From the NCBI GenBank assembly GCA_018064475.1, contig JAGHVD010000002.1, forward strand, positions 1-56,650: 56,650 bases of DNA, written 5' to 3'. Positions 44,138 through 56,650 of this stretch are shown here, in pieces. Numbering within the stretch: the stretch's first letter is position 1; each line of letters opens with the position of its first letter. Made by a program: the position numbers and the translations under genes. The notes under the pieces were generated by a model that saw only the letters and a list, made by a program, of their open reading frames with translations, was not told where the DNA came from and ran no database searches. The DNA comes from Candidatus Scatonaster coprocaballi. GTDB taxonomy: Bacteria; Bacillota; Clostridia; Saccharofermentanales; Saccharofermentanaceae.

Positions 44138-45781
44138 TTATGTTTCGTCGTGTTTTCTTCTCACTACGCACATTACGGAGGCGGCCGAAGCTGCGATCAG
44201 GAGGATTGCCATGATCGGCAGGAGCGATGCGCTTTCACCGGTCTTCGGTGTGCCGCCGCCTGGAGCAGGCGTAGGCGTTGGCGTCGGTGTGGCACCTGGT
44301 GTAGGCGTCGGTGTGGCACCTGGTGTAGGCGTCGGTGTTGCACCCGGCTCTGGTGTTGGTGTCGGTGTCAGTGCTGGAAGTTTCTTCGTTCCCAGCACAC
44401 GGCTGCAGACCAGACATTCTTGGTGCGCGGAACCGTCCTTGCCAAGCTGTGGCTGAGCATCCACGATCCAATCACTCGGATCATGTGCTTCACATGCGCA
44501 AGCTGGTTTGCCACACTTCTCACAAAGATGCCAGTGGCCATCCGCATCGTGTTCCCATTCCGAAGACGGAACATGTTCAACATCCATTTCCACGAAAACT
44601 TCCAAATAACTCAAACCACCAGAAGTAGATACATCGATATCAATAACTTTACCAGCTGGTACAGTGATATCGGAAGGTTTCATTTTTAGACTGAAATCAT
44701 AGCCGTCTTCAGTTTCGAAATAGTAGTATGCATAGGCCTTATTTCCGCCTTCAAACGTACCCAAAAATCCATCACTTGCATCAGCGTCTTTGATCCAGTA
44801 TGCAGGAAGGAATAGACCTCCGTTATCATCCAGATGGAAGTGAACGTCGGAAGGAATTGAAACTTTAGGGGGATTCGTCTGGGTATCCCAGTTATAATTA
44901 CCCGATGCATACTTATCAGCCGTTACCGTTGTGCCACAAAGTGGTGCCTCGTTGGTAAAAGAAACTGTTTTAATCAACTCATTTTCCGATACAGGAACAT
45001 ATAGCGTAACTTCCAACAACTGGGAACTTATTATATCGATTCTATAACTCATCCCACCTGTTCTGACATTCACATAGTTCGTATCGAATTCATACCCGTC
45101 ATCTGGTTCAAGGTACAACTTTACAAGCGCCGTGTCCCCATCTCTATATGAATTATTATTGAGAGGCTGGTTGTAAGTCGGATCCCAAAAGTAACTGGTA
45201 TACGGTGCGGTGTTGAGCAGGTGATAATGGTTTCCTTCATCGATCCACACATCCGGGGAAGGAGTCTGCGTCGTGCCATTCATAGTAATTGTTACACCTG
45301 CGATGTGATCGTCTGTATACGCACTCGCTTCGTGAATGATCTTTTTTCCGGCTTTTGTCGTAAATTTCAATGCATACTTGGAATATTGGGAAGCAGTCGA
45401 ATCGGAAATAACAAATTGACCGGTTATTACCGTATTGGATGGATTTGCGTTCGCTCTGTATGCAGTACCCAAAAATGATGCCTCGTTACCAGCATCGTCC
45501 AGTGCATAGACATGTACTGGGCCATCCATCATCGCACCAAATTCATACCCGGTCTTCAGGCTGATTTCATAATCGTAAGTAACTCCATACGTGAAAGAAT
45601 AAGGTGTGCTGAGATCCACCTGACTTCCATTAATATAGAATTTATCTACAGCATCGTTCCCAGCCGCATCGATAAGCTTTGCGATCACCGGGTCCGGATC
45701 AGCTGCAAATACCGTGACTGCCATGGACATGATCAGCAACACGCTCAAGCACACAGCCAAAAGCTTTTTAAATCTTCTCAT
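44138..45781 (-). CDS. LPXTG-type sortase-anchored surface protein with PTPTPG repeats
   Basis: A 547-residue secreted protein. Signal peptide at residues 1-26 (MRRFKKLLAV to VFA). The body, to about residue 425, contains Thr/Tyr-rich beta-sheet-like segments in repeated blocks. A short region with HWHLCEKCGKPACAC and CLVCSR (about residues 430-480) has paired cysteines. Then come ATPTPTPG repeats, the sorting signal TPKTG, a membrane helix and the basic tail RRKHDET. Sortase would link it to the cell wall. The ATG at 45781 is chosen for the signal peptide; AGGAGG lies about twelve bases upstream. Pairs of 35-bp inverted repeats lie on both sides. Confidence 0.85.
   Translation of the reverse strand: MRRFKKLLAVCLSVLLIMSMAVTVFAADPDPVIAKLIDAAGNDAVDKFYINGSQVDLSTPYSFTYGVTYDYEISLKTGYEFGAMMDGPVHVYALDDAGNEASFLGTAYRANANPSNTVITGQFVISDSTASQYSKYALKFTTKAGKKIIHEASAYTDDHIAGVTITMNGTTQTPSPDVWIDEGNHYHLLNTAPYTSYFWDPTYNQPLNNNSYRDGDTALVKLYLEPDDGYEFDTNYVNVRTGGMSYRIDIISSQLLEVTLYVPVSENELIKTVSFTNEAPLCGTTVTADKYASGNYNWDTQTNPPKVSIPSDVHFHLDDNGGLFLPAYWIKDADASDGFLGTFEGGNKAYAYYYFETEDGYDFSLKMKPSDITVPAGKVIDIDVSTSGGLSYLEVFVEMDVEHVPSSEWEHDADGHWHLCEKCGKPACACEAHDPSDWIVDAQPQLGKDGSAHQECLVCSRVLGTKKLPALTPTPTPEPGATPTPTPGATPTPTPGATPTPTPTPAPGGGTPKTGESASLLPIMAILLIAASAASVMCVVRRKHDET
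44265..44355 (-). repeat. 24-bp tandem repeat encoding the Pro/Thr wall-spanning region
   Basis: About three to four near-identical 24-base units (on the plus strand each contains GGCACCTGGTGTAGGCGTCG) encode the eight-residue unit ATPTPTPG. A wall-spanning Pro/Thr stalk is common in LPXTG proteins; near-identical units suggest recent expansion and possible length variation. Confidence 0.85.
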
Positions 45782-45849
45782 ACGTGAAAAGAACCTCCTC
45801 TTCAACAGACATGTCAATTCATACTATAACACTTGAATTCATCCGTGTG

Positions 45850-46027: not shown

Positions 46028-46471
46028 TTACATCTCGTCCCCAACAGTGAACTGCGTCCACTCGATCTTGTTATACTGCATCACATCGTCGGCCTTCTCC
46101 ATGCCAAGCTTCTCGTAGAAGGGAATCGCGGCGTTATTAGCAATGAGGTACACCGCAATGTCTTTCTCACCGCCCGCAATCTCGTGGGCCTGCTTCATGA
46201 GGTGACGTCCGATGCCCTGTCCTTCATAGTCCCGCGCGACGCCGAGATCCGTCACGTACAGCCAGTAGCAGAAATCTGTCAGTCCGAACAGTACACCCAC
46301 AATAGTCTTCTCCTCATTTCGCGCCACCAGACTAATGGATACATTCCTCACCAGTTTTTCGATACGCGATTGGAATCGCTCTTTCGGGTACTGGGACCCA
46401 AGATTCGTTCGCTTCAGGAAATCAATATATTCTTCCGCCGTCAGTCTCTCTTCTTGATAAGTGATGTTCAT
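46028..46471 (-). CDS. GNAT-family N-acetyltransferase
   Basis: A 147-residue GNAT protein. The acetyl-CoA-binding motif A appears as LGVARDYEGQGIGRHLM near residue 85, and ANNAAIPFYEKLGM near residue 120 is the typical motif B. The ATG at 46471 overlaps the stop of the phosphopantetheinyl transferase gene (ATGA), with AAGGAG upstream. It is the last gene of the peptide-synthetase operon and could acetylate the free amine of the product or give self-protection (inference). Confidence 0.82.
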   Translation of the reverse strand: MNITYQEERLTAEEYIDFLKRTNLGSQYPKERFQSRIEKLVRNVSISLVARNEEKTIVGVLFGLTDFCYWLYVTDLGVARDYEGQGIGRHLMKQAHEIAGGEKDIAVYLIANNAAIPFYEKLGMEKADDVMQYNKIEWTQFTVGDEM

Positions 46472-47190
46472 GGATGACTCCTTCTTTCCGTTTTCTTTCC
46501 TTGTGTGAACGATTGGATCTGTTCTGTTGTAACGATTTGAATCGGTATGTTCTCTATCTCTTGGCCACTTCCACTGACACACCATGCAATCTTGTGGTGA
46601 GCATCGATATTGCGCGTTTGAAACCACACACTGTCATCTCGTTGGCCATGGAGCGTAACCACTATACCATCATGTTCCTGACTAATCACAAAATGATTCA
46701 GCGGCATACACAGTCCTTTCCCTATGTTCTTGACATAACTTTCTTTCAAAGTCCAGATCGTATAGAACTTATCGAGTCGGTCCGCTTCTTTACGCGAGTG
46801 AATGTAGGTGCACTCTTCTGTGCTGAAGAACTCATCTGCAATAGAAAGATCGATCACATCCATTCTCTCCACATCTACACCTAAATTGCAATCCCCGATT
46901 CCCAGGAACACCCAGTCACCAGAATGAGAAAGATTGAAGAATACTCCTTCCGGCTCCTTCATGATTGGCTTTCCATACTCATTTCTGTCTATAGCAGATT
47001 CACTGTATCCATATTTTTCGTGCAGTGCATATCGTAACAGTAATCCCGCAAATAAGCTCCGAATTCTATCCTCGTCAAAGTGGAAACGCGAGATCACCTG
47101 TCGTCTTCCTTCTGAAACAAAGGCGAGCAGATCCGCTACTTCCCGAAATGAGTGAATCCCACTTATGTTGTATGCGTATAGATCGATCAT
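46468..47190 (-). CDS. Sfp-type 4'-phosphopantetheinyl transferase
   Basis: A 240-residue Sfp/Gsp-family enzyme. It has the magnesium and CoA-binding motifs NLGVDVERM near residue 103 and WTLKESYVKNIGKGL near residue 147, and FNLSHSGDW near residue 85. It transfers phosphopantetheine from CoA to the conserved Ser of the carrier domains in the two synthetases of this operon. The start overlaps the stop of the deacetylase gene (ATGA), and the gene itself overlaps the acetyltransferase gene in the same way. Confidence 0.93.
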   Translation of the reverse strand: MIDLYAYNISGIHSFREVADLLAFVSEGRRQVISRFHFDEDRIRSLFAGLLLRYALHEKYGYSESAIDRNEYGKPIMKEPEGVFFNLSHSGDWVFLGIGDCNLGVDVERMDVIDLSIADEFFSTEECTYIHSRKEADRLDKFYTIWTLKESYVKNIGKGLCMPLNHFVISQEHDGIVVTLHGQRDDSVWFQTRNIDAHHKIAWCVSGSGQEIENIPIQIVTTEQIQSFTQGKKTERRSHP

Positions 47191-47924
47191 GATTCAACTA
47201 TCCGTTTGAAGTGGATGCCTTTATCTAGGAACGCTTTGATAATTGGTTCGAACATATCCGTTGTCTGTGGATGATCATGAATTACGATTATTTCATTCGA
47301 ACTTGGATCATTAAGTCCCATCCATCTCTCTGGAAGATCCAAATCCATCATCTCCAGGACATCCTCGATAGTTCGCACTCCAAATGGCGAATCTTCCTGA
47401 AAAACACACCATTCCATAGCATCATAGGTCCAAAGCCAGTCTACTTGCCCCGTAGCCTGCATTCTCTTAAAGTATTCGAAATTAATATTATCGAAAGGAT
47501 ATGTACCATAACCATTTTGAATCAAGATCTTCTGGATCGCTTCGATTCGTTCTCGATCTGACTCCGAATACGAAGTATCGAAGAAACCAGTGTTGACGCC
47601 TTTGTTTCCATATGGGAAACGAAAGAGTTTTATGGGGCGTTGCACACCTGCCTGCCGATATAATTTGTCAATCAACTCATCCGTTCGAATGATTTCTTCC
47701 TCGCACTGTGCGATAGAGATTTCAGAGAAATTTGGATGCGTATAACTATGATTGCCGATGACTTGACCCGCAAGAATTGTACGAATAGCTGCATCTGCGT
47801 TGGCTTCCATGTCTATTCCCATACTGAACCAGACAGCCTGAATGCCATATTTCTTCAGAATTTCCACTTTCTTGATACGATCAACAGATGGACCATCATC
47901 GATGGTAAGATAGGCTTCTTTCAT
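47187..47924 (-). CDS. NodB-type polysaccharide/sugar deacetylase
   Basis: A 245-residue protein of the polysaccharide deacetylase family (CE4-like). All core motifs are present: TIDDGP (residues 7-12, metal and base Asp), HSYTH near residue 58, RFPYG near residue 99 and VIHDH near residue 218. No signal peptide, so it should act in the cytoplasm, unlike peptidoglycan deacetylases. Embedded by ATGA overlaps between a UGT gene and the phosphopantetheinyl transferase gene, it may de-N-acetylate a sugar such as GlcNAc attached by the glycosyltransferases (inference). Confidence 0.87.
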   Translation of the reverse strand: MKEAYLTIDDGPSVDRIKKVEILKKYGIQAVWFSMGIDMEANADAAIRTILAGQVIGNHSYTHPNFSEISIAQCEEEIIRTDELIDKLYRQAGVQRPIKLFRFPYGNKGVNTGFFDTSYSESDRERIEAIQKILIQNGYGTYPFDNINFEYFKRMQATGQVDWLWTYDAMEWCVFQEDSPFGVRTIEDVLEMMDLDLPERWMGLNDPSSNEIIVIHDHPQTTDMFEPIIKAFLDKGIHFKRIVES

Positions 47925-49300
47925 TTCAGATTCTCCCTCTTCCGTTTAATAATATCCAGCAGAAGTGCCTTCTGCTTATCTGTACGACTTCCCTGTTTTG
48001 CATGAGTATCAGGCCCGCAGTCATGATCCACCTCATTCCGACAAACAGATGTATAATTCAGATTGATCGAGTACCGGTACTGGTCATTTCCCATCATTTG
48101 TTCCACACGATCAGCAGCAATCGTCACACCACTGTTCTCCTTCATGATGGCCATGTACTTCTTACAATTGGAGATAATCTCCTCTCGGCACGTCTGCGAG
48201 ATCATTGAAGCAATTTTCTCGGGCTGCCAGTTCGCTAGATAAAGATAATCACCTACACCCAATTTCTTAATCAACGTAGCATTGTACGGACGGTCAACAT
48301 AGCATGGCAGAATCAACTGTGGAACACCCGCGGCCAACGCCCCAGACAGGGTCCCCATTCCACCATGATGGATCAGCAGACTGACTTGAGGCAAAATCAT
48401 ATCTAGTGGTAATGCATCAAACCAGATAACATTATCCGGTAGTTTCTCTGGCAAGAATTCTCTATACTGGGTCAGCACCACCGTCGGCTGACCGAGCTGA
48501 TCACATGCAGCAATACTATTGGTATAGAAGTCCTCATGAATACACTTCGTTGTACCACCAGTAATCACAATCGGGTTCGGATGCTGTTCGATCCATACCT
48601 GAAAATCACTTGGAACCTCCCGTTGATACGCTTCTTTTCCCTGTTCTATCGGAAATCCAATCGTCTCGATTGTACTCGGCCATTCCTCGTCGGCCTCATC
48701 AAACCACGTTGGCCAGAAGGCCAAAGTCATTCTGGCGCTACTCTCCCACTGAAGCCAGGACTTAATCGGTGGCAGGCCAACACTGTCCCGTAAAGCATTC
48801 AATCTGGGAAGATCATTCATTCCTTCAATGTCTTCATAAAGAAGCATACTCTTGACTTCCGTTGGATTCATCATAACGGTTCCAAGTGATAATCCCAACT
48901 TCTCAGCAACGAGATACGCGGCAATACTTGAGCGATTTTTACAAAGAATCACCGTATCAGACCGGCAGCATGAAAGAACAATATTGTACTCTTTGAGTCT
49001 AATCTCGTTTGACTCATACCGCTGACGGAATTCACTAGACGAAAAAGAATAATGATTTTCCTGCGAATCATCCGTTTTATTCTGTTGCATGGACTCGACA
49101 AGAATGTTATATTCTTCCGGCGTATCCCAAGAACGGAAGCTTAAGCCAGCCATTTCCGCCATTTCCTGAAAATGGCAATGCGTGATTAAGGTCACATCAT
49201 GCCCACGTCTCTTCAATTCTCTACCAACCCGAATGAACGGAATTACATCTCCATCGAGCCAGTGTGTTACGATTACTACATTTCCCATTTCCCAGATCAT
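47921..49300 (-). CDS. UGT/MGT-family glycosyltransferase (second copy)
   Basis: A 459-residue GT1 glycosyltransferase of the UGT/macrolide type. VVIVTHWLDGDVIPFIRVG at the N-terminus and the donor-binding LIHHGGMGTLSGALAAGVP near residue 330 identify it. It is a paralogue of the next gene upstream, with which it shares the start, the HHGGMGT block and a basic Arg/Lys-rich end. The ATG at 49300 overlaps the upstream stop (ATGA); an in-frame ATG at 49288 is an alternative. Expected to glycosylate a small molecule from an NDP-sugar in the cytoplasm. Confidence 0.87.
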   Translation of the reverse strand: MIWEMGNVVIVTHWLDGDVIPFIRVGRELKRRGHDVTLITHCHFQEMAEMAGLSFRSWDTPEEYNILVESMQQNKTDDSQENHYSFSSSEFRQRYESNEIRLKEYNIVLSCCRSDTVILCKNRSSIAAYLVAEKLGLSLGTVMMNPTEVKSMLLYEDIEGMNDLPRLNALRDSVGLPPIKSWLQWESSARMTLAFWPTWFDEADEEWPSTIETIGFPIEQGKEAYQREVPSDFQVWIEQHPNPIVITGGTTKCIHEDFYTNSIAACDQLGQPTVVLTQYREFLPEKLPDNVIWFDALPLDMILPQVSLLIHHGGMGTLSGALAAGVPQLILPCYVDRPYNATLIKKLGVGDYLYLANWQPEKIASMISQTCREEIISNCKKYMAIMKENSGVTIAADRVEQMMGNDQYRYSINLNYTSVCRNEVDHDCGPDTHAKQGSRTDKQKALLLDIIKRKRENLK

Positions 49301-50628
49301 TCGCCTTTCCGTTGCTTCTTCCGGATAATCTCAAGAAGCACGTTTTTGGGTAATTGATTCACAGAAGCAGTATTGACTCCATGTTCCGTGTTCTGTTGTT
49401 TTGGTTGGAACGGTTCACAAGGACCAATCTGTGGTATCACATCTTTCCACAACTTTGCGTCATATGTTTCTCGATTCATATCTCTATAGTGAATGCACTG
49501 TTCCTTGATATTACCTTCAAGCAATGTCGTTAAGTTCTCAGCAATTCTATTTTCGTCCCAAAGAAGAGGTGGCAGTTTCACGGCGACACCCATTTTCACC
49601 AGACGGTCTGCATTATCCGGGCCATCTGTCAGGTGAGGCATAACAACTTGTGGTAGCGCAGCGTCAATGGCTTCATTAATCGTACCCATTCCACCGTGAT
49701 GAATCACAATGTCGACCTGTTTCATGAGATTTCTTAATGAAACATGATGTACCCAGACTACATTATGGGGAAGTACCTCTGGAAGGTATTCTTTATAAGG
49801 CGTCACCACAATCGCACAAACGCTTGCCTGGACACATCCTTGGATAGCTTTCTGATAGAATGATTTGCTGACCATTCTGCTACTACCTCCGGTGATAATC
49901 ACCAGTTTTTGTTCGGTTTGTCTAGCCTCGTTGATAAAAGCACTTAACTCCTCGTTCTGTTCATCCGAACCATTTGAGATGGTTTCTTCAATAAATCCTA
50001 TAGTTTCTGCACTTTCAGGCCATGTTTCATCCGCTTGTGCATACCATTCCGGCCACCCACAAAGAATATGTTTCGGTGAATATAACCAGTCTTTCCAGTT
50101 CGCGATTGGAGACATTTGAAGCTGGCTTCTCGCCTGATTAATTTCCTTGCAGAAATCCTCTCCAAATAACTGATCGTGCAGTTCCATGTGAGAGAAATAA
50201 TTCGGTGCGAGGATCATCGACGCATAGGGAAGATGGTTCTTCTCTGCCGCCAAGAGGCCGGATATACTGGAACGATGCCGAGCAATAATAATACTATGTT
50301 CAGTAGCAACCTGCTCGATCAAGGCCACTTCACGAAGCAGTCTTTCCTTGCCATGATACACTTGGTGGAAATGAACATAATCCTCCTTCTTGCCAAGTGG
50401 ATCTGCCAACATGGGCAGATCCCGATTCAGATGTTCATATCCATCTTCAGTGTCCACTGCCACAAAACCAAGGCCGGCCGCTTGGGCCTGATCTGCATAG
50501 ACACAATGCGTCAACAACGTAACACGATGGCCTTGTTGCTGAAGCATTTTCCCGAACCGGATAAATGGATAGACATCTCCACCGGTCCAGTGGGTTACTA
50601 GAACAATATCCGACACTTTATTCTCCAT
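49297..50628 (-). CDS. UGT/MGT-family glycosyltransferase (first copy)
   Basis: A 443-residue GT1 glycosyltransferase. IVLVTHWTGGDVYPFIRFG opens the N-terminal acceptor domain and IVIHHGGMGTINEAIDAALP near residue 325 marks the donor-binding site. The protein ends in VLLEIIRKKQRK, very like the end of its paralogue. The gene overlaps the end of the A-T synthetase gene by 11 bases. Two copies in tandem suggest two successive sugar additions or two different sugars on the peptide product (inference). Confidence 0.87.
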   Translation of the reverse strand: MENKVSDIVLVTHWTGGDVYPFIRFGKMLQQQGHRVTLLTHCVYADQAQAAGLGFVAVDTEDGYEHLNRDLPMLADPLGKKEDYVHFHQVYHGKERLLREVALIEQVATEHSIIIARHRSSISGLLAAEKNHLPYASMILAPNYFSHMELHDQLFGEDFCKEINQARSQLQMSPIANWKDWLYSPKHILCGWPEWYAQADETWPESAETIGFIEETISNGSDEQNEELSAFINEARQTEQKLVIITGGSSRMVSKSFYQKAIQGCVQASVCAIVVTPYKEYLPEVLPHNVVWVHHVSLRNLMKQVDIVIHHGGMGTINEAIDAALPQVVMPHLTDGPDNADRLVKMGVAVKLPPLLWDENRIAENLTTLLEGNIKEQCIHYRDMNRETYDAKLWKDVIPQIGPCEPFQPKQQNTEHGVNTASVNQLPKNVLLEIIRKKQRKGE

Positions 50629-52450
50629 CCACTAATGCTTGAATCTCTTCTTCAGAAAGATTGGCAAACAGATTATCTTCCACGAGAGAGGCAATCTCCT
50701 CAATTGTCATTACTCGTGAGAAAATCTCCACAAGTTTGATTGTGGTTCCGAAGGTATTGTTTAACTGCTTCACCATTCTATTTGCAAGGAGAGAATGTCC
50801 ACCCAGTGCAAGGAAATCGTCATGTACACTGACCTTGTCGATGTTCAGCAACTGTTTCCAGATATCAGCAACCATTTCCTCAATCTCGTTTCTTGGCGCT
50901 ACAAACTCGCCGTTCTGATCTTCGACATCATCTGTCATGAGCATCAATGCCTTACGATCCACTTTCAGATTCGCAGTCATAGGATACTCATCAACGTACC
51001 GGAAAACATTTGGAACCATATAGTATGGCAGAACGCCCTCCACAAAACTCTTCATATCTGATACAGCAGGTCGATCTTCCGTTTTCATTTTTATATACGC
51101 TTTGATCTTTGCTTCAGCATTTTCTCCAGATACAACAACGACCGCCTGCGCAACTGCCGCATGTTTCATGATGGCCGTTTCAATTTCTCCCAGCTCGATT
51201 CGGTAACCATGTACCTTCACCTGAAAATCACTTCGACCGATATAGACGATATCCTTTTCGTTGACGAACTTGACCACATCACCGGTCTTATAGATCCTTC
51301 CTCCATTCGCATCTAACGGATTCGGAATAAACCGTTCTTCTGTTAATTCAGGATTTTCAAAATATCCACGGGCAACACCAATTCCACCAATGTATAATTC
51401 ACCTTCTACGCCTGTTTCAACTGGTTTCAGTTCATGATCCAATACATAGATATCAGTCTGGCTAATTGGTGCACCGATTGGAATGTATGTATCCGCTTTC
51501 GTTATTTGATACATCGTTGAATAAATCGTCGTTTCCGTCGGTCCGTAGACATTCCAAAGTTGGCTACAACCACAATCTAGGATATCCTGCGCCAGCTGGA
51601 TACTCCATGGTTCACCACCAATAAGCATCTTCATTCCTTGCAGATTTCTCAATCCCGCATCAAGCAGCATATATGCTGTAGAAGGTGTAAAGCCACATAA
51701 GTCAATCTGTTCTTCTTCTATGAGCTTAGCAAGCAACGATCCGTCTTTTGCAGTCTCATTATCAGCCACAATCAGCGTGCCGCCATTGATCAGCGGCAAA
51801 AACATCTCGGAAATTGAGATGTCGAAAGTAATCGTTACAACGGAGAGACCATGTTCTGATCCATTAAGGTCTAGATGTTCACTCACACTCAGCAGGTAAT
51901 TTACCATACCTTCATGCTCAACCTCGACACCCTTCGGATTACCTGTTGAACCTGATGTAAAAATAACATAGGCCAACTGGTCTCCCCCTTGTAAACGATT
52001 CTCACAATTTTCCTCACCAGCACTGGTGATTTCATTCCAAATTTGATCCACACAGATGTTCTTAGCAGAAACATCGAAAATGTGTTCATACTTGCTTTCA
52101 GATAAGAGTATTGCAATATGCGATTTCTCAATGATGTACTTGTTACGCTCAATTGGGTGAGCTGGATCAAGTGGCACATATGCTCCACCGGCCTTCATGA
52201 CAGCAAGAATAGAAACGATCATTTTCTCAGAACGATCCATATAAATACCGACAAGTGACTCTTTTCCCACGCCACTTTGCTGTAATTTTCCAGCCAGTCT
52301 GTTAACCGCGTGACAGACCTCGGCATACGTTAGCATCTCGTTTCTGAACTTCAGCGCTACTTTGTCTGGAACAATCAGCGCTCGTTGCTCAATCAGACCT
52401 AGCAATGTTATCTCTTTTGTATTTCGTTGTTCGCCGTGCAAAACACTCAT
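50618..52450 (-). CDS. Two-domain nonribosomal peptide synthetase (A-T)
   Basis: A 610-residue synthetase: an adenylation domain (about residues 15-510) and a carrier domain (about 525-595). Adenylation motifs: FTSGSTGNPKGV near residue 170, NVYGPTETT near residue 310, YKTGD near 395, [12 protein letters not shown] near 420 and NLKVDRKAL near 500. The carrier Ser is in LGGHSLLAN near residue 560. My hand-derived pocket code is D-I-S-G-L-G-V-I-Y, which matches no signature I can recall well; it is loosely like glycine codes. No condensation or thioesterase domain is present. AGGAG is eight bases before the ATG, fifteen bases after the TrpB-like gene. It probably loads the amino acid accepted by the condensation domain of the A-T-C protein. 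Confidence 0.92.
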   Translation of the reverse strand: MSVLHGEQRNTKEITLLGLIEQRALIVPDKVALKFRNEMLTYAEVCHAVNRLAGKLQQSGVGKESLVGIYMDRSEKMIVSILAVMKAGGAYVPLDPAHPIERNKYIIEKSHIAILLSESKYEHIFDVSAKNICVDQIWNEITSAGEENCENRLQGGDQLAYVIFTSGSTGNPKGVEVEHEGMVNYLLSVSEHLDLNGSEHGLSVVTITFDISISEMFLPLINGGTLIVADNETAKDGSLLAKLIEEEQIDLCGFTPSTAYMLLDAGLRNLQGMKMLIGGEPWSIQLAQDILDCGCSQLWNVYGPTETTIYSTMYQITKADTYIPIGAPISQTDIYVLDHELKPVETGVEGELYIGGIGVARGYFENPELTEERFIPNPLDANGGRIYKTGDVVKFVNEKDIVYIGRSDFQVKVHGYRIELGEIETAIMKHAAVAQAVVVVSGENAEAKIKAYIKMKTEDRPAVSDMKSFVEGVLPYYMVPNVFRYVDEYPMTANLKVDRKALMLMTDDVEDQNGEFVAPRNEIEEMVADIWKQLLNIDKVSVHDDFLALGGHSLLANRMVKQLNNTFGTTIKLVEIFSRVMTIEEIASLVEDNLFANLSEEEIQALVDGE

Positions 52451-52465
52451 CCCAATATCTCCTGC

Positions 52466-53833
52466 TTACTCTACTGTCGGAATTGACTTTGCAAGTCTTT
52501 CAATCTCCTCATCGCTGACCTTATAGTCTTCGATACGATGCTCATTGTACTTCTGATATGCAGGCATATCGAAATATCCCGTTCCAGACAAAACAAACAG
52601 AATGTTTTTCTCCTCGCCTGTCTCCTTACACTTCAGTGCCTCATCAATAGCAACTTTGATTGCATGGCTGCTTTCTGGTGCAGGAACAATACCTTCTGTT
52701 TTCGCAAATAATGCTGCAGCATCGAATGCAGATGTCTGACTGATTGCTACTGCTTCGATCAGTTTATCTTCATAAAGCTGTGAAACAATCGGGCTCATAC
52801 CGTGATATCTCAGTCCACCAGCATGAATCGGTGATGGAACGAACTGACTGCCCAACGTATACATCTTAGCTAACGGGCAAATCATACCTGTATCGCAGAA
52901 ATCGTATGCATACTTACCTCTTGTCAGACTTGGACAAGCTTCCGGCTCTACTGCAATGATCCGATAGTCATTGATTCCCTTGATCTTCTCACCAATGAAC
53001 GGAGAAGCCAAGCCACAGAAGTTCGATCCGCCACTAGCACAACCAATGATAATATCTGGCTTGATATCGTACTTCTCCAGCGCTTTTTTCGTCTCAAGGC
53101 CAATGATAGACTGGTGCATCAGTACTGCACTAAACATGGAGCCGAGAACATAAGCATATCCATCCTGTGTGGTGGCAATTTCAGCAGCTTCCGAAATCGC
53201 ACATCCAAGGCTACCTGGCGTATTCGGGAACTCCGCGTTGATCTTCTTTCCGATTTCAGTAAATGTAGATGGTGAAGAAATAACATCTGCACCGAAAAGT
53301 TTCATTACTTCACGACGGAATGCCTTCTGCTCATAGGAAACACGTACCATACAAATTTTGCATTCCAAATCGAAAAAAGCACTGGCCACAGAAGTTGCTG
53401 TACCTACATTTCCTGCCGCTGTTTCTGTGACAATTCCTTTCAACCCCTGTTTCTTAGCATAGTAAGCTTGTGGAACCAATGAATTCAGTTTGTGGCTGTT
53501 AGAGGCATTCTCGCCCTCATGTTTGAAATAGATGTGAGCCGGTGTTCCCAATTTCTTCTCGAGTCTCTTCGCACGAATAACTGGAGTCGCTCTGTACATT
53601 TTATATATGTCCATCACTTCTTCCGGAATGTCCACATAAGGTTTGTCGAATGATAATTCCTGTCTTACTACTTCCTCACCAAAAATAGCTGTCAGATCCT
53701 CAAATGTGAGTGGTTCTTTCGTCGCCGGATTAAGGTACGGTGCTGGTTTGTTGACCATATCACTTCTGATGTCATACCACTGTCTTGGCAACTCATCTTC
53801 TGAAAGAATAATACGTACTGGTTCTTTGTTCAT
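52466..53833 (-). CDS. TrpB2-like PLP-dependent beta-replacement enzyme
   Basis: A 455-residue homologue of tryptophan synthase beta subunit of the TrpB2 type (long N-terminal extension, overall length, and C-terminal SGTGYFD instead of the Asp-bearing TrpB1 ending). The PLP lysine is Lys115 in NSHKLNS and the phosphate-binding loop is GCASGGSNF near residue 265. The catalytic Glu137 is kept, but the loop reads ETAAGNVG where tryptophan synthases have ETGAGQHG or ETGAGQWG. There is no trpA, and no other tryptophan gene. It lies between two peptide-synthetase genes, so it probably makes an unusual beta-substituted or dehydro amino acid for the pathway (inference). AAGGAG precedes the ATG. Confidence 0.85.
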   Translation of the reverse strand: MNKEPVRIILSEDELPRQWYDIRSDMVNKPAPYLNPATKEPLTFEDLTAIFGEEVVRQELSFDKPYVDIPEEVMDIYKMYRATPVIRAKRLEKKLGTPAHIYFKHEGENASNSHKLNSLVPQAYYAKKQGLKGIVTETAAGNVGTATSVASAFFDLECKICMVRVSYEQKAFRREVMKLFGADVISSPSTFTEIGKKINAEFPNTPGSLGCAISEAAEIATTQDGYAYVLGSMFSAVLMHQSIIGLETKKALEKYDIKPDIIIGCASGGSNFCGLASPFIGEKIKGINDYRIIAVEPEACPSLTRGKYAYDFCDTGMICPLAKMYTLGSQFVPSPIHAGGLRYHGMSPIVSQLYEDKLIEAVAISQTSAFDAAALFAKTEGIVPAPESSHAIKVAIDEALKCKETGEEKNILFVLSGTGYFDMPAYQKYNEHRIEDYKVSDEEIERLAKSIPTVE

Positions 53834-53908
53834 AAAAATACTCCTTATTATTTATTTTTCTACCTGTTCAGCTCCCGAACAAATAGATTAATAACCATAT
53901 GAATTGGT

Positions 53909-56650
53909 TTACTCGTCAATTGACAAGGTTTTCTTGATCCGCTGAAGGATCTCCTCATCAGGTTCCCCGTGGGTATAGAATGTCATATCAATTAACAACA
54001 TTTCTCGATACGAAATGCAGAATACTCTTTCTTCATCATCCGGAACATCAGTCAATTCAATCACATTAACCGTATGCGCCGTCTCATAATCAACTGCATC
54101 ATACATGTTCACAAAAACCACATCATGATCTACATTTGACATTATATCATTACTCAAATATGAATATGTCCTATCGATTTTTTGAGAAATTTTAGATAAC
54201 TTATCATAATAATCGAGTGTGTTCATATCAACGTTGAAAACTCCCGGAACATAATCCGCATATAAGCCGAGTGAACGAATCGAATTTTCGTTTCGTCCAT
54301 GATGAAGTGAGATGAATCCAATCTTTCCATTATCTTGATTTGCTGTGATTTCACTGTACTTCGACAATACCCACCTGATGTCATAGTTCTTTCCCTCCTC
54401 TCTTCTGATACTTACCACTAAATGTTTCGCGCCCGTCGCGCCATTTCTGACAATCGATGTATGATGTTTGAAACACTCTCTGATTCTTTCTATCTCATCC
54501 GCTGAAAGCATATGAATGTCAGATTCCATTCTGGACTTCACATAAGCATTAAAAGTCGGATCAGGAATAGAAATCTCCTCGTCCTTCAAATAACTCTCAA
54601 GAAGGTCCGCCATAACATCGTCACTCGTCCGATCCCACAATGCGTGATTGGTGCTGATATACACCTCGAAAGAATTGCTTGACAATGCAACGATTAGTAT
54701 CCTCGGCAGAACCTGTTCGCCTGTTGTAGCCGTAATCTTCGCCAACGTAGATGCAATGACGGTTCGATTCTCCACCTGTTCTATCGGAAGGACCGGAATA
54801 TTCCACTGACCGAATTCATACTCGGTCAATTCACCTGTCTCATATGAATAACAGGTACGGAAAATATCCTGATCTCTTACAATGCCAAGAATAGCCTGTC
54901 TCAACTGATCCAACGTTACACCGGAGACGGCCAGACCGACACCCGTCTGTCTCGGACGCTCATGTGAGTAATCGATAAACGTTCGTTGGATATAATTGGG
55001 TTTGTAAGAGCAGATGATCCGCTTGCCATTCAGATTGTTCAGATAGTCGTTGACTGCTTCAGCAACTTCTTCATTCTCAGGTCCTTGGGCTTCCATCTGG
55101 TAAACGTACAAAATATCGAATTGAGATACTTCATACAGTGCTTTTGCACTCGAGATCTGCTTAGCCTGACCATCGATACACTTCGCGATTTCTGCAATAC
55201 ATTTCTTCGAATAAATGTCCTTGACCGAGATGGAGTATTTATAATCGCGCAACAACGACGAGATACGAATACACTTAATAGAATCTCCACCAATTTCGAA
55301 GAAATTGTCATAAATGCTGACAGGACTGTAACCTAGGACTTTTGCAAAAAGATCCGCCAGAATTTGTTCCACCTCATTTCGAGGTGCCACATATTCCTTG
55401 CTCGTACGAACTTCAATGTCCGGAAGTGCACGTTTATCCAGTTTTCCGTTTCTCGTGATGGGTATCCTATCAATCTGCATCATGTAAGACGGAATCATGT
55501 AATCCGGCAAAATTGTAGACAATATCTCACGGATTTCCATTAACTGAATGTTCTCATCACTTACTACATAGGCACAGATCACCTTGTCTCCACTTGCATC
55601 TGCCCGAGCAATGACTGCACAGTCTTTCACTTTCTGTATCGCTTTAATCTGGTTCTCAATCTCACCCAGTTCGATTCGGAATCCGCGGATTTTCACTTGT
55701 TCATCGATTCGGCCGAGATACTCGATGTTTCCATCCGGCAACCATCTTGCCAAGTCGCCGGTACGGTACATCCGGCCTTCACCGAACGGATTCTTCACGA
55801 ATTTCTCATCTGTCAGCTCCGGTCGATTCAGATAGCCTCTCGCCACACCATCACCGGCAATACAGAGTTCACCAGGCACACCAATTCCGCAGAGGACGTC
55901 ATCATTCATAATATAAATCTGTGAATTCGAGAAAGGCTTACCTATAGTGATCCTATCTTCCCGTTCAAGTATTGAATACGTCGATGCGACCGTCGCTTCA
56001 GTCGGTCCATACTCATCGATTACGACAACACTTTCCCCTATCACTGTCTTAATTCTGTTTACAAGGCTCGTGGTAACTGCTTCACCGCCGAGCATGAGTG
56101 CATGAATCTTACAAGTACCACACTTCTCAATATCATCCATCACCAATCCAAGATGTGACGGGGTGATCTTCAGCACGGCAATATCATTCACCGAAGCAAA
56201 CTCGACAAGTTCCGTCTCACTGCTAAAAATCTGAAGTTTTTTGCCAAGAAGCATGCTACCGAAAATTGCTGTTACAGTCAGGTCGAATACATAATTCGTG
56301 ATCAGTGGTATAGCACCATCAAACCGGTAGAATTCTCGATCTACTGTAATCAGATAATTGTTCAACGAACGGTTGGTAATCTGCACGCCCTTCGGCTTGC
56401 CGGTAGTTCCGGATGTGTAGATACAGTAGATCAGGTCAGAAGGTGTATTCACACGCGCCGGGTTTTCTGACTTGCCTGTATAGAGGTTACTGTCTCCAAG
56501 ATCGATCACAGGAAGTTCTGTTTGGATCGTTGACTGGTATGTCAGTACCGCCTTTGGCTTCGCATCTTCCAACATGAACGCTATTCGTTCTGTCGGATAA
56601 CTTGGATCCATCGGTACATACGCACCGCCTGCCTTCAGGATTCCGAAGAT
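53909..56650 (-). CDS. Nonribosomal peptide synthetase A-T-C, 5' end beyond the window
   Basis: The frame is open to the right edge; 913 residues are visible, starting just before the A2 motif ([14 protein letters not shown]). The adenylation domain covers about residues 1-415 ([12 protein letters not shown] near 80, [10 protein letters not shown] near 215, YRTGDL near 297, NGKLDKRAL near 405). Its pocket residues read D-L-T-K-M-G-E-V-A, close to the asparagine code DLTKIGEVGK. The carrier Ser is in IGGDSIK near residue 457. A condensation-superfamily domain fills about 510-913; its HHxxxDG motif is degenerate (NHALWDR, with the second His and the Asp kept), and LHHGRNE lies further on, so a C or an E-like domain are both possible. 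No thioesterase follows. Confidence 0.9.

Follow-up and report, generated by a model that had tools for sequence, protein, structure and literature searches.

A contig-cut non-ribosomal peptide synthetase cluster with a putative glyco-loading unit in Candidatus Scatonaster coprocaballi

The DNA analysed here (the window) was the entire contig C80 (JAGHVD010000002.1; 56,650 bases) of the Candidatus Scatonaster coprocaballi genome, referred to as G000, and the system in question was a group of eight minus-strand genes at positions 46028-56650. It was concluded, with a probability of roughly one half, that the window holds the right-hand, contig-cut end of a multimodular non-ribosomal peptide synthetase (NRPS) cluster for a glycosylated peptide, in which a glyco-loading unit feeds the NRPS. 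This reading was built on gene content, the truncation, a conserved gene cassette, domain order, motifs, helices at the tails of UGT glycosyltransferases and a fusion of one such enzyme to a condensation (C) domain, all of which were taken directly from sequence.

According to the proposed scheme, a stand-alone adenylation-thiolation (A-T) protein, g3, would activate and hold the first amino acid, and two glycosyltransferases, UGT1 and UGT2, would glycosylate this starter, most likely on the carrier domain. A CE4 deacetylase would strip the N-acetyl group from a sugar, probably converting N-acetylglucosamine (GlcNAc) to glucosamine (GlcN). The starter would then be passed to the C domain that opens the NRPS (C1), about six more residues would be added with Asn as the last one, and the product would leave via the terminal domain C*. 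The phosphopantetheinyl transferase (PPTase) would activate the T domains, and a second TrpB2-type enzyme may supply a non-standard amino acid, in this cluster only so far. The on-carrier timing, the order and identity of the sugars, the product and the roles of C* and TrpB2 are what we infer from these features, which were located as follows:

53909..56650, minus strand: gene 1, the 3' end of a large NRPS, A(partial)-T-C*, cut at the contig edge; the same ending occurs in proteins of 3561, 3522 and 8461 amino acids (aa)
55442..56650, minus strand: A domain of gene 1 (from profile position 63), code DLTKLGEVAK, taken as Asn-like
55175..55363, minus strand: T (PP-binding) domain of gene 1, by Pfam
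53912..55150, minus strand: C*, terminal degenerate domain of the condensation/epimerization (C/E) superfamily in gene 1, motif HxxWDR
52466..53833, minus strand: second TrpB2-type pyridoxal phosphate (PLP) enzyme, diverged from the copy on contig C83
50618..52450, minus strand: g3 (gene 3), stand-alone A-T protein, proposed loading module, code DISGIGVIYK
49297..50628, minus strand: UGT1, GT-B glycosyltransferase, GGDVYP
49312..49359, minus strand: C-terminal helix of UGT1 (by sequence), like the NRPS N-terminus that precedes C1
47921..49300, minus strand: UGT2, GT-B glycosyltransferase, DGDVIP
47936..47983, minus strand: C-terminal helix of UGT2 (by sequence), like the NRPS N-terminus that precedes C1
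47187..47924, minus strand: CE4 (NodB/PgdA-type) deacetylase, CE4 motifs by eye
46468..47190, minus strand: Sfp-type PPTase, GVDVE, WTLKES
46028..46471, minus strand: GNAT acetyltransferase, ATG at 46471, without a match in 13 related loci

The eight open reading frames (ORFs) stood as the original prediction had described them, with gaps of 75 and 15 bases followed by overlaps of 11, 4, 4, 4 and 4 bases. The last overlap of 4 requires the GNAT gene to start at the ATG at 46471, since its longest ORF (GTG start) would overlap the PPTase gene by 160. The annotations were backed by Pfam and NCBIfam for the A and T domains, TrpB2, both GT-B UGTs, the CE4 deacetylase, the Sfp-type PPTase and the GNAT protein. 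A single translationally coupled operon, as had been claimed, was reasonable because of the 4-base overlaps, but the stretches of the 13 other loci described below contained no GNAT relative. The window itself contains the A, T and PPTase components of an NRPS gene cluster, and canonical C domains were found only on other contigs and in relatives.

Gene 1 had been described as a complete small A-T-C synthetase. A whole A-T-C protein was ruled out by the open frame at the contig end, and the gene is incomplete because the frame runs off the contig edge at 56650 and the A domain begins at profile position 63/384. The terms compact, minimal NRPS and short peptide had to be abandoned as well, since the contig ends inside the cluster and those related lines that are complete and finish in C* comprise three or seven modules. 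Thus the window does not hold two complete synthetases forming a compact two-module NRPS. The forecast of an Asn-containing product agreed with the gene 1 code. The specificity positions of g3 were located from its motifs, transferred by alignment and compared with reference codes for Asn, Val, Gly, Cys and Ile; DLTKLGEVAK was presumed to be Asn-like on the Asn reference code.

Relatives of gene 1 were found as the closing module of NRPSs measuring 3,522 to 8,461 aa, which open with C1 and finish with C*. Three such whole lines were found, one of 3561 aa in G016 and two, of 3522 and 8461 aa, in G019. In G016 (and its near-twin G010) the 3,561-aa NRPS has the order C-A-T-C-A-T-C-A-T-C*, and the A-T gene, UGT1 and PPTase come after it. 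The two lines of G019 have one A-T gene between them, and the longer one (G019:C50:32218-57603; L033-L034-L107) comprises seven modules with two epimerization (E) domains. One-module NRPS versions were also present in the family (G522, L058 and L060).

Three further contigs of G000 carried NRPS pieces. Contig C45 encodes a thioesterase (by similarity) and an NRPS with a C1-type start (C-A-T-E-C-A), contig C64 encodes A-T-E-C-A-T, and contig C9 encodes C-A-T-C-A-T-E and then C-A. In a C-domain tree, the three C domains of G000 that follow E domains formed one clade with one of G019 (support 100/100). These pieces probably belong to the same cluster as C80. The order C45, C64, C9, C80 suggests six extension modules which, with the A-T protein, would give seven residues; this order was derived from domain logic, because sequence overlap joins none of these contigs. 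Another NRPS of the genome, on contig C97 (L046:5503-14439; 2978 aa; A-T-C-A-C-A-T by profiles), has C domains that are only distantly placed from the cluster's own.

The search for UGT2 relatives covered 98 related genomes, a named genome collection, in which 9 loci were obtained, 188 genomes of the order and 391 of the class, these sets overlapping. Fourteen loci gave strong matches: the window, G003, G010, G016, G019, G020, G046, G402, G415, G522, L052, L053, L058 and L060. Loci with weak UGT relatives (L016-L028) were excluded as cassette loci and were used as controls. Four of the nine named-collection records name goat omasum, buffalo reticulum or buffalo rumen as the source, and one locus of that collection came from an isolate, Sporanaerobium hydrogeniformans XHS1971, of the class Clostridia. 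The A-T protein, UGT1 and UGT2 were each present in 13/14 loci (all three in 12/14), the deacetylase in 8/14 and the PPTase in 9/14; the counts are lower bounds because several loci end at contig edges, and those of the UGTs were partly a matter of choice because the loci were picked by UGT similarity. The PPTase relative of G415 was weak (34%) and without the motifs searched. Hence, the UGT, deacetylase and PPTase genes do travel with the synthetase genes across the 14 loci, a point on which the original prediction had depended. The TrpB-like and GNAT proteins gave no match in the stretches of the 13 other loci (six-frame tblastn, E 1e-3) and were rejected as core genes of the cluster. A variant was observed in G003:C7 (L042:345-6731), where an FkbH-like protein, a glyoxalase-type protein, a thioesterase, the A-T protein and UGT1 were encoded, with no UGT2 or deacetylase in that stretch.

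In a tree of the glycosyltransferases, UGT1 and UGT2 fell on two sides of 12 rows each (support 99/95; midpoint root, G010 omitted). Both had been called MGT-type. A GT-B fold of UGT type was upheld by Pfam and by relatives in the PDB; membership of the subfamily TIGR01426 was not, as the scores were 72 and 91 bits against a cut-off of 260. The Pfam matches were EryCIII-like_C, Glyco_transf_28 and UDPGT, with Glyco_transf_28 in UGT2 at 26.0 against a cut-off of 26.2. A PDB search, made with the UGT2 profile only, returned sterol glucosyltransferases as nearest, followed by bacterial natural-product glycosyltransferases including GtfA, GtfB and GtfD. The motif GDxxP was present in 26/26 enzymes read, the search having also allowed GHxxP. 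Its Asp was taken to be the base, as in the vancomycin Gtf enzymes, where MGTs have His.

Most cluster UGTs carry a variable linker and then a short Leu/Lys-rich end resembling the first ~16 residues of the NRPS before C1. The tails were compared without gaps to nine 16-mer seeds, all of them from NRPS N-termini and none from UGTs, with a score of 16 as the line. This line was reached by 17/22 cluster UGT tails, which are related rows and not independent, by 0/17 control UGTs, 0/260 other ORFs and 61/1100 shuffled tails, the latter owing to the high K, L and R content of the tails. A score of at least 20 was recorded for 10/22 real tails vs 11/1100 shuffled ones. The UGT2 tails of G046 and G019 were just under the line (14.6 and 15.1). 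The test excluded G010 (near-identical to G016) and the UGT2 of L060 (cut by the contig end), the fused enzyme of G402 was scored apart, and two N-termini, G019 17304 (extra residue) and L058, were manually excluded from the seed. The ungapped comparison was chosen after the result of an earlier profile hidden Markov model (HMM) of the NRPS N-terminal helix had been seen; the HMM gave at least 5 bits in 3/22 tails, 7/440 shuffles and 0/17 controls, and performed poorly because its seed alignment was gapped.

Fusion and gene order were examined in the same loci. In G402, a protein of 964 aa joins an enzyme that groups with UGT2 (on a long branch) to a C domain, and the linker carries the tail motif (score 21.2); the preceding gene encodes an FkbH-T protein (L083:13606-18702, contig C1 of G402). 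This locus adjoins IS21-type (IstB) gene pieces. In four loci (G415, G522, L058 and G046) UGT2 lies directly upstream of the NRPS that opens with C1, in the order A-T, UGT1, UGT2, C1-NRPS. A plasmid search was also made, and of the three neighbourhoods read among the matches listed (10 of 125) a Streptomyces plasmid alone was relevant, with a near full-length relative of the G402 FkbH-T protein (30%), an acyl carrier protein (ACP) gene that overlaps one for a UGT, and a C domain standing alone. This unassigned cluster (L085, Streptomyces sp. NBC_00441 plasmid, 69040-94227) also contains a second UGT, an MFS protein and sugar-nucleotide genes. Together, the UGT tails, the G402 fusion and the gene order would favour glycosylation of a carrier-bound starter.

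The code of g3 was identical in eight loci (the window, G010, G016, G019, G020, L052, L053 and L060), and the A-T proteins of L058, G003, G046, G415 and G522 carry other codes. In the one-contig genome G522 the order is A-T, UGT1, UGT2, one NRPS (C-A-T-TE-MFS, where TE is a thioesterase domain) and deacetylase, and within the 35 kb read no NRPS domain was found beyond the A-T protein and that one NRPS. The NRPS begins with a C domain and is the sole other NRPS protein seen; therefore, the A-T protein should supply the first residue. The same gene order plus a PPTase was present in Sporanaerobium hydrogeniformans XHS1971, where the contig starts 608 bases before the A-T gene and further upstream genes are possible.

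The C domain at the start of these NRPSs is of a characteristic type, and in trees the first C domains grouped apart from internal ones. In the first tree the C1 group was supported by 86/71 (11 rows); when the C domain fused to the G402 UGT was counted in, giving 12 rows, the support was 96/96. In the second tree the support was 81/82 (11 rows), and the long-branch G402 domain stood at an open fork. Once the Streptomyces C domain was added the group was not resolved; the eight closest C1 rows were supported by 100/100 in all three trees. G010 was omitted from the C-domain trees as near-identical to G016, and the second tree and that with the Streptomyces domain were built without three C domains on long branches, two from C97 and one from C38.

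Several observations weighed against the proposed scheme. DISGIGVIYK is not known to match any reference code, so the starter may lack a group that can be glycosylated, and the A-T codes of G415 and G046 look Gly-like. The tail helix was absent in both UGTs of G522 and in UGT2 of G415. The UGT2 of L058 scored 16.7 by a stretch that stops 14 residues short of the C-terminus, the end itself scoring 8.0, and when this enzyme is discounted the helix is at the terminal place in 16/22. The monophyly of C1 appeared to be moderately supported across the trees. The final 400 bases of the window shared no 15-mer with any of the 16 ends tested on eight candidate stretches, one tested end each of C97 and C81 not being a true contig end. 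Finally, the glycosylation of suomilide is proposed to follow release (PMC13122637).

The last point belongs equally to a different explanation, in which the multimodular NRPS is the same and UGT1, UGT2 and the deacetylase act on the released peptide, the tails being a docking element or a relic of a past fusion. We regard this as possible, if on the doubtful side. Vancomycin-type clusters (GtfA/B/D) resemble the present one in having an NRPS peptide and GT-B enzymes with Asp where MGTs have His; Gtf structures are also among the PDB relatives of UGT2, and the vancomycin Gtf enzymes act on the released aglycone. The cluster studied here differs from them in its stand-alone A-T protein, the tail helices of the UGTs, the CE4 deacetylase and C*. 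No P450 was found among the 9 window proteins scanned with Pfam, the cluster being incomplete in the window. Release before glycosylation is opposed by the UGT tail helix, which is of the type seen where the NRPS begins, by the UGT-C fusion in G402 and by the order A-T, UGT1, UGT2, C1-NRPS in four loci.

If glycosylation of the carrier-bound starter is preferred, a wider proposal can be made, which we put forward tentatively: Clostridia, and perhaps some actinomycetes, may use a glyco-loading module in which the glycosyltransferase is a part of the assembly line and a decorated, carrier-bound first residue is handed to a matched first C domain, the two being fused as UGT-C in G402. If true, starting an NRPS from a building block that carries its sugar beforehand would represent a new mode of initiation. 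Glycosyltransferases would then become placeable parts of NRPS lines, with an engineerable tail and the natural UGT-C fusion as a starting point. The family offers a small version in the one-contig genome G522 and another in the isolate Sporanaerobium hydrogeniformans XHS1971.

The C-terminal ~410 aa of gene 1, C*, constitute a divergent domain of the C/E superfamily with no match to Pfam Condensation (PF00668). His174 and Asp178 of the HHxxxDG motif are kept in 5/5 sequences as [NH]HxxWDR, and C* may be active for this reason. The Glu of EGHGR, found in E domains, was absent in 5/5. An ordinary C domain was rejected, given the missing PF00668 match and NHxxWDR or HHxxWDR instead of HHxxxDG, and an ordinary E domain was rejected for the missing Glu, although the C* profile matched E domains (hhalign E 1.9e-4, probability 48%, vs E 0.013, probability 3% for extension C domains). 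A PDB sequence search with C* gave nothing from the single sequence and E about 0.09 at best from a profile, and structure prediction from two rows (window and L053) gave a mean pLDDT of 44. C* was present in 5/23 genomes of the genus, exactly the five that have UGT2, and at E 1e-12 in 0 of 397 other genomes sampled from the phylum.

Six loci carried C*, and five had TE-MFS instead (L052, L058, L060, G415 and G522; Pfam was run on three of these). TE-MFS places the synthetase and the exporter in one polypeptide (L058:5125-10599, G415:C24:62097-70712, G522:C1:2256831-2262401), so that in this sister branch a Cys-type thioesterase links the NRPS to an MFS exporter of its own. The nucleophile elbow has Cys in 5/5 fused TEs and Ser in 6/7 discrete thioesterases. 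Among the 391 class genomes the fusion was found in G415 and G522 only, and in 25 other genomes matching at E 1e-40 the MFS proteins were separate (≤476 aa).

An ABC exporter pair was encoded in 4/6 C* loci (G016, G010, G019 and L053) and in 0/5 TE-MFS loci, in which the NRPS itself carries the exporter. Hence, C* could be a docking or tethering domain for the ABC exporter rather than a release catalyst. A system similar by description is cereulide synthetase with CesCD, in which a condensation-type domain is possibly tied to an ABC exporter: CesC, an ABC ATPase, is reported to bind C domains of the synthetase (PMC7527721). According to the same text, however, all three C domains tested bound CesC and not the terminal one alone. 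No ABC exporter pair was found in the window or in the G020 stretches (40.8 kb, two contigs), and the retained His174 and Asp178 suggest possible activity. A docking role was thus considered rather unlikely, and release via C* was retained in the proposed scheme.

The deacetylase matched PF01522, and the CE4 motifs T[IV]DDGP, NHxxxH, RFP[YF]G and [IVM]HDH were seen in 8/8 deacetylases (alignment, by eye); we take these to have their usual metal-binding and catalytic roles. Peptidoglycan GlcNAc deacetylases led the list of closest solved structures. In G010, G016, G019, G020 and G046 a galactokinase-like GHMP kinase and a GalU-type uridylyltransferase were encoded in one protein (families read on the G016 copy), which points to a supply of uridine diphosphate (UDP) sugars. 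A search of the window's genome for this protein gave no match, with no positive control in that search. The donor would be UDP-GlcNAc, and GlcN would be present in the product.

The TrpB2 assignment was firm by NF009057 and TIGR01415 (638 vs 366 and 567 vs 519 bits, score vs cut-off), with K115 and E137 kept, which are presumably catalytic. TrpB2 was present in 23/23 genomes of the genus, and two copies (E 1e-60) were found in the window genome only. The other copy, on contig C83, has 60% identity to the cluster copy. The latter alters 101/348 positions that are invariant in 12 other copies, including the loop TGAGQWG, which became TAAGNVG, and its activity is uncertain because this loop lies next to the catalytic residues. 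A duplicated enzyme inside a biosynthetic cluster, in 1/23 genus genomes, could be a resistant copy shielding the producer from a TrpB-directed product. This was judged quite unlikely, as the many changed invariant positions and the altered loop fit a new substrate better; a changed substrate is the likelier explanation over a resistant spare copy.

Least probable by far was the original prediction of a complete two-module synthetase (A-T-C plus A-T) for a short Asn-containing glycopeptide, which the Asn-like code of gene 1 and the one-extension-module versions in G522, L058 and L060 would suit, but which is contradicted by the open end of gene 1, the three or seven modules of complete related C*-ending lines and the three further NRPS contigs of matching type in the same genome.

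Other known systems were compared as well. An FkbH loading unit is present in suomilide/banyaside, cystomanamides and vioprolide, and G402 and the Streptomyces locus L085 likewise have FkbH-T with a UGT and a C domain. For suomilide and cystomanamides, FkbH loading is described in pathways to glycosylated peptides (PMC13122637, PMC8949500). In contrast to these glycerate-starting NRPSs, the cassette of the window would load via an A-T protein and not FkbH. In the pairs SyrB1/SyrB2 and NovH/NovI an amino acid is modified while bound to a discrete A-T protein; here the tailoring would differ in being glycosylation, by two UGTs. Among NCBIfam models, those of the aureusimine system AusA/AusB ranked first for gene 1 (488 bits) and for the PPTase (82 bits), gene 3 having another best model; far under the cut-offs of 2500 and 225 bits, this is a domain resemblance only.

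It had been claimed that this combination of NRPS, glycosyltransferases, deacetylase and PPTase matched no known pathway of gut or rumen Clostridia, and no such pathway to a glycosylated non-ribosomal peptide was found in the literature searched. Among the matches listed, titles and abstract openings mentioned no such cluster, no on-carrier NRPS glycosylation and no NRPS-MFS fusion, most subscription journals lying outside the search. The novelty of the cluster is therefore provisional.

Outside the eight genes, a protein encoded at 44138-45817 of the window gave no Pfam match above cut-off. Its Pro/Thr-rich stretch has PKTGE at the end and, together with a hydrophobic segment and a basic tail, resembles by eye a cell-wall sorting signal.

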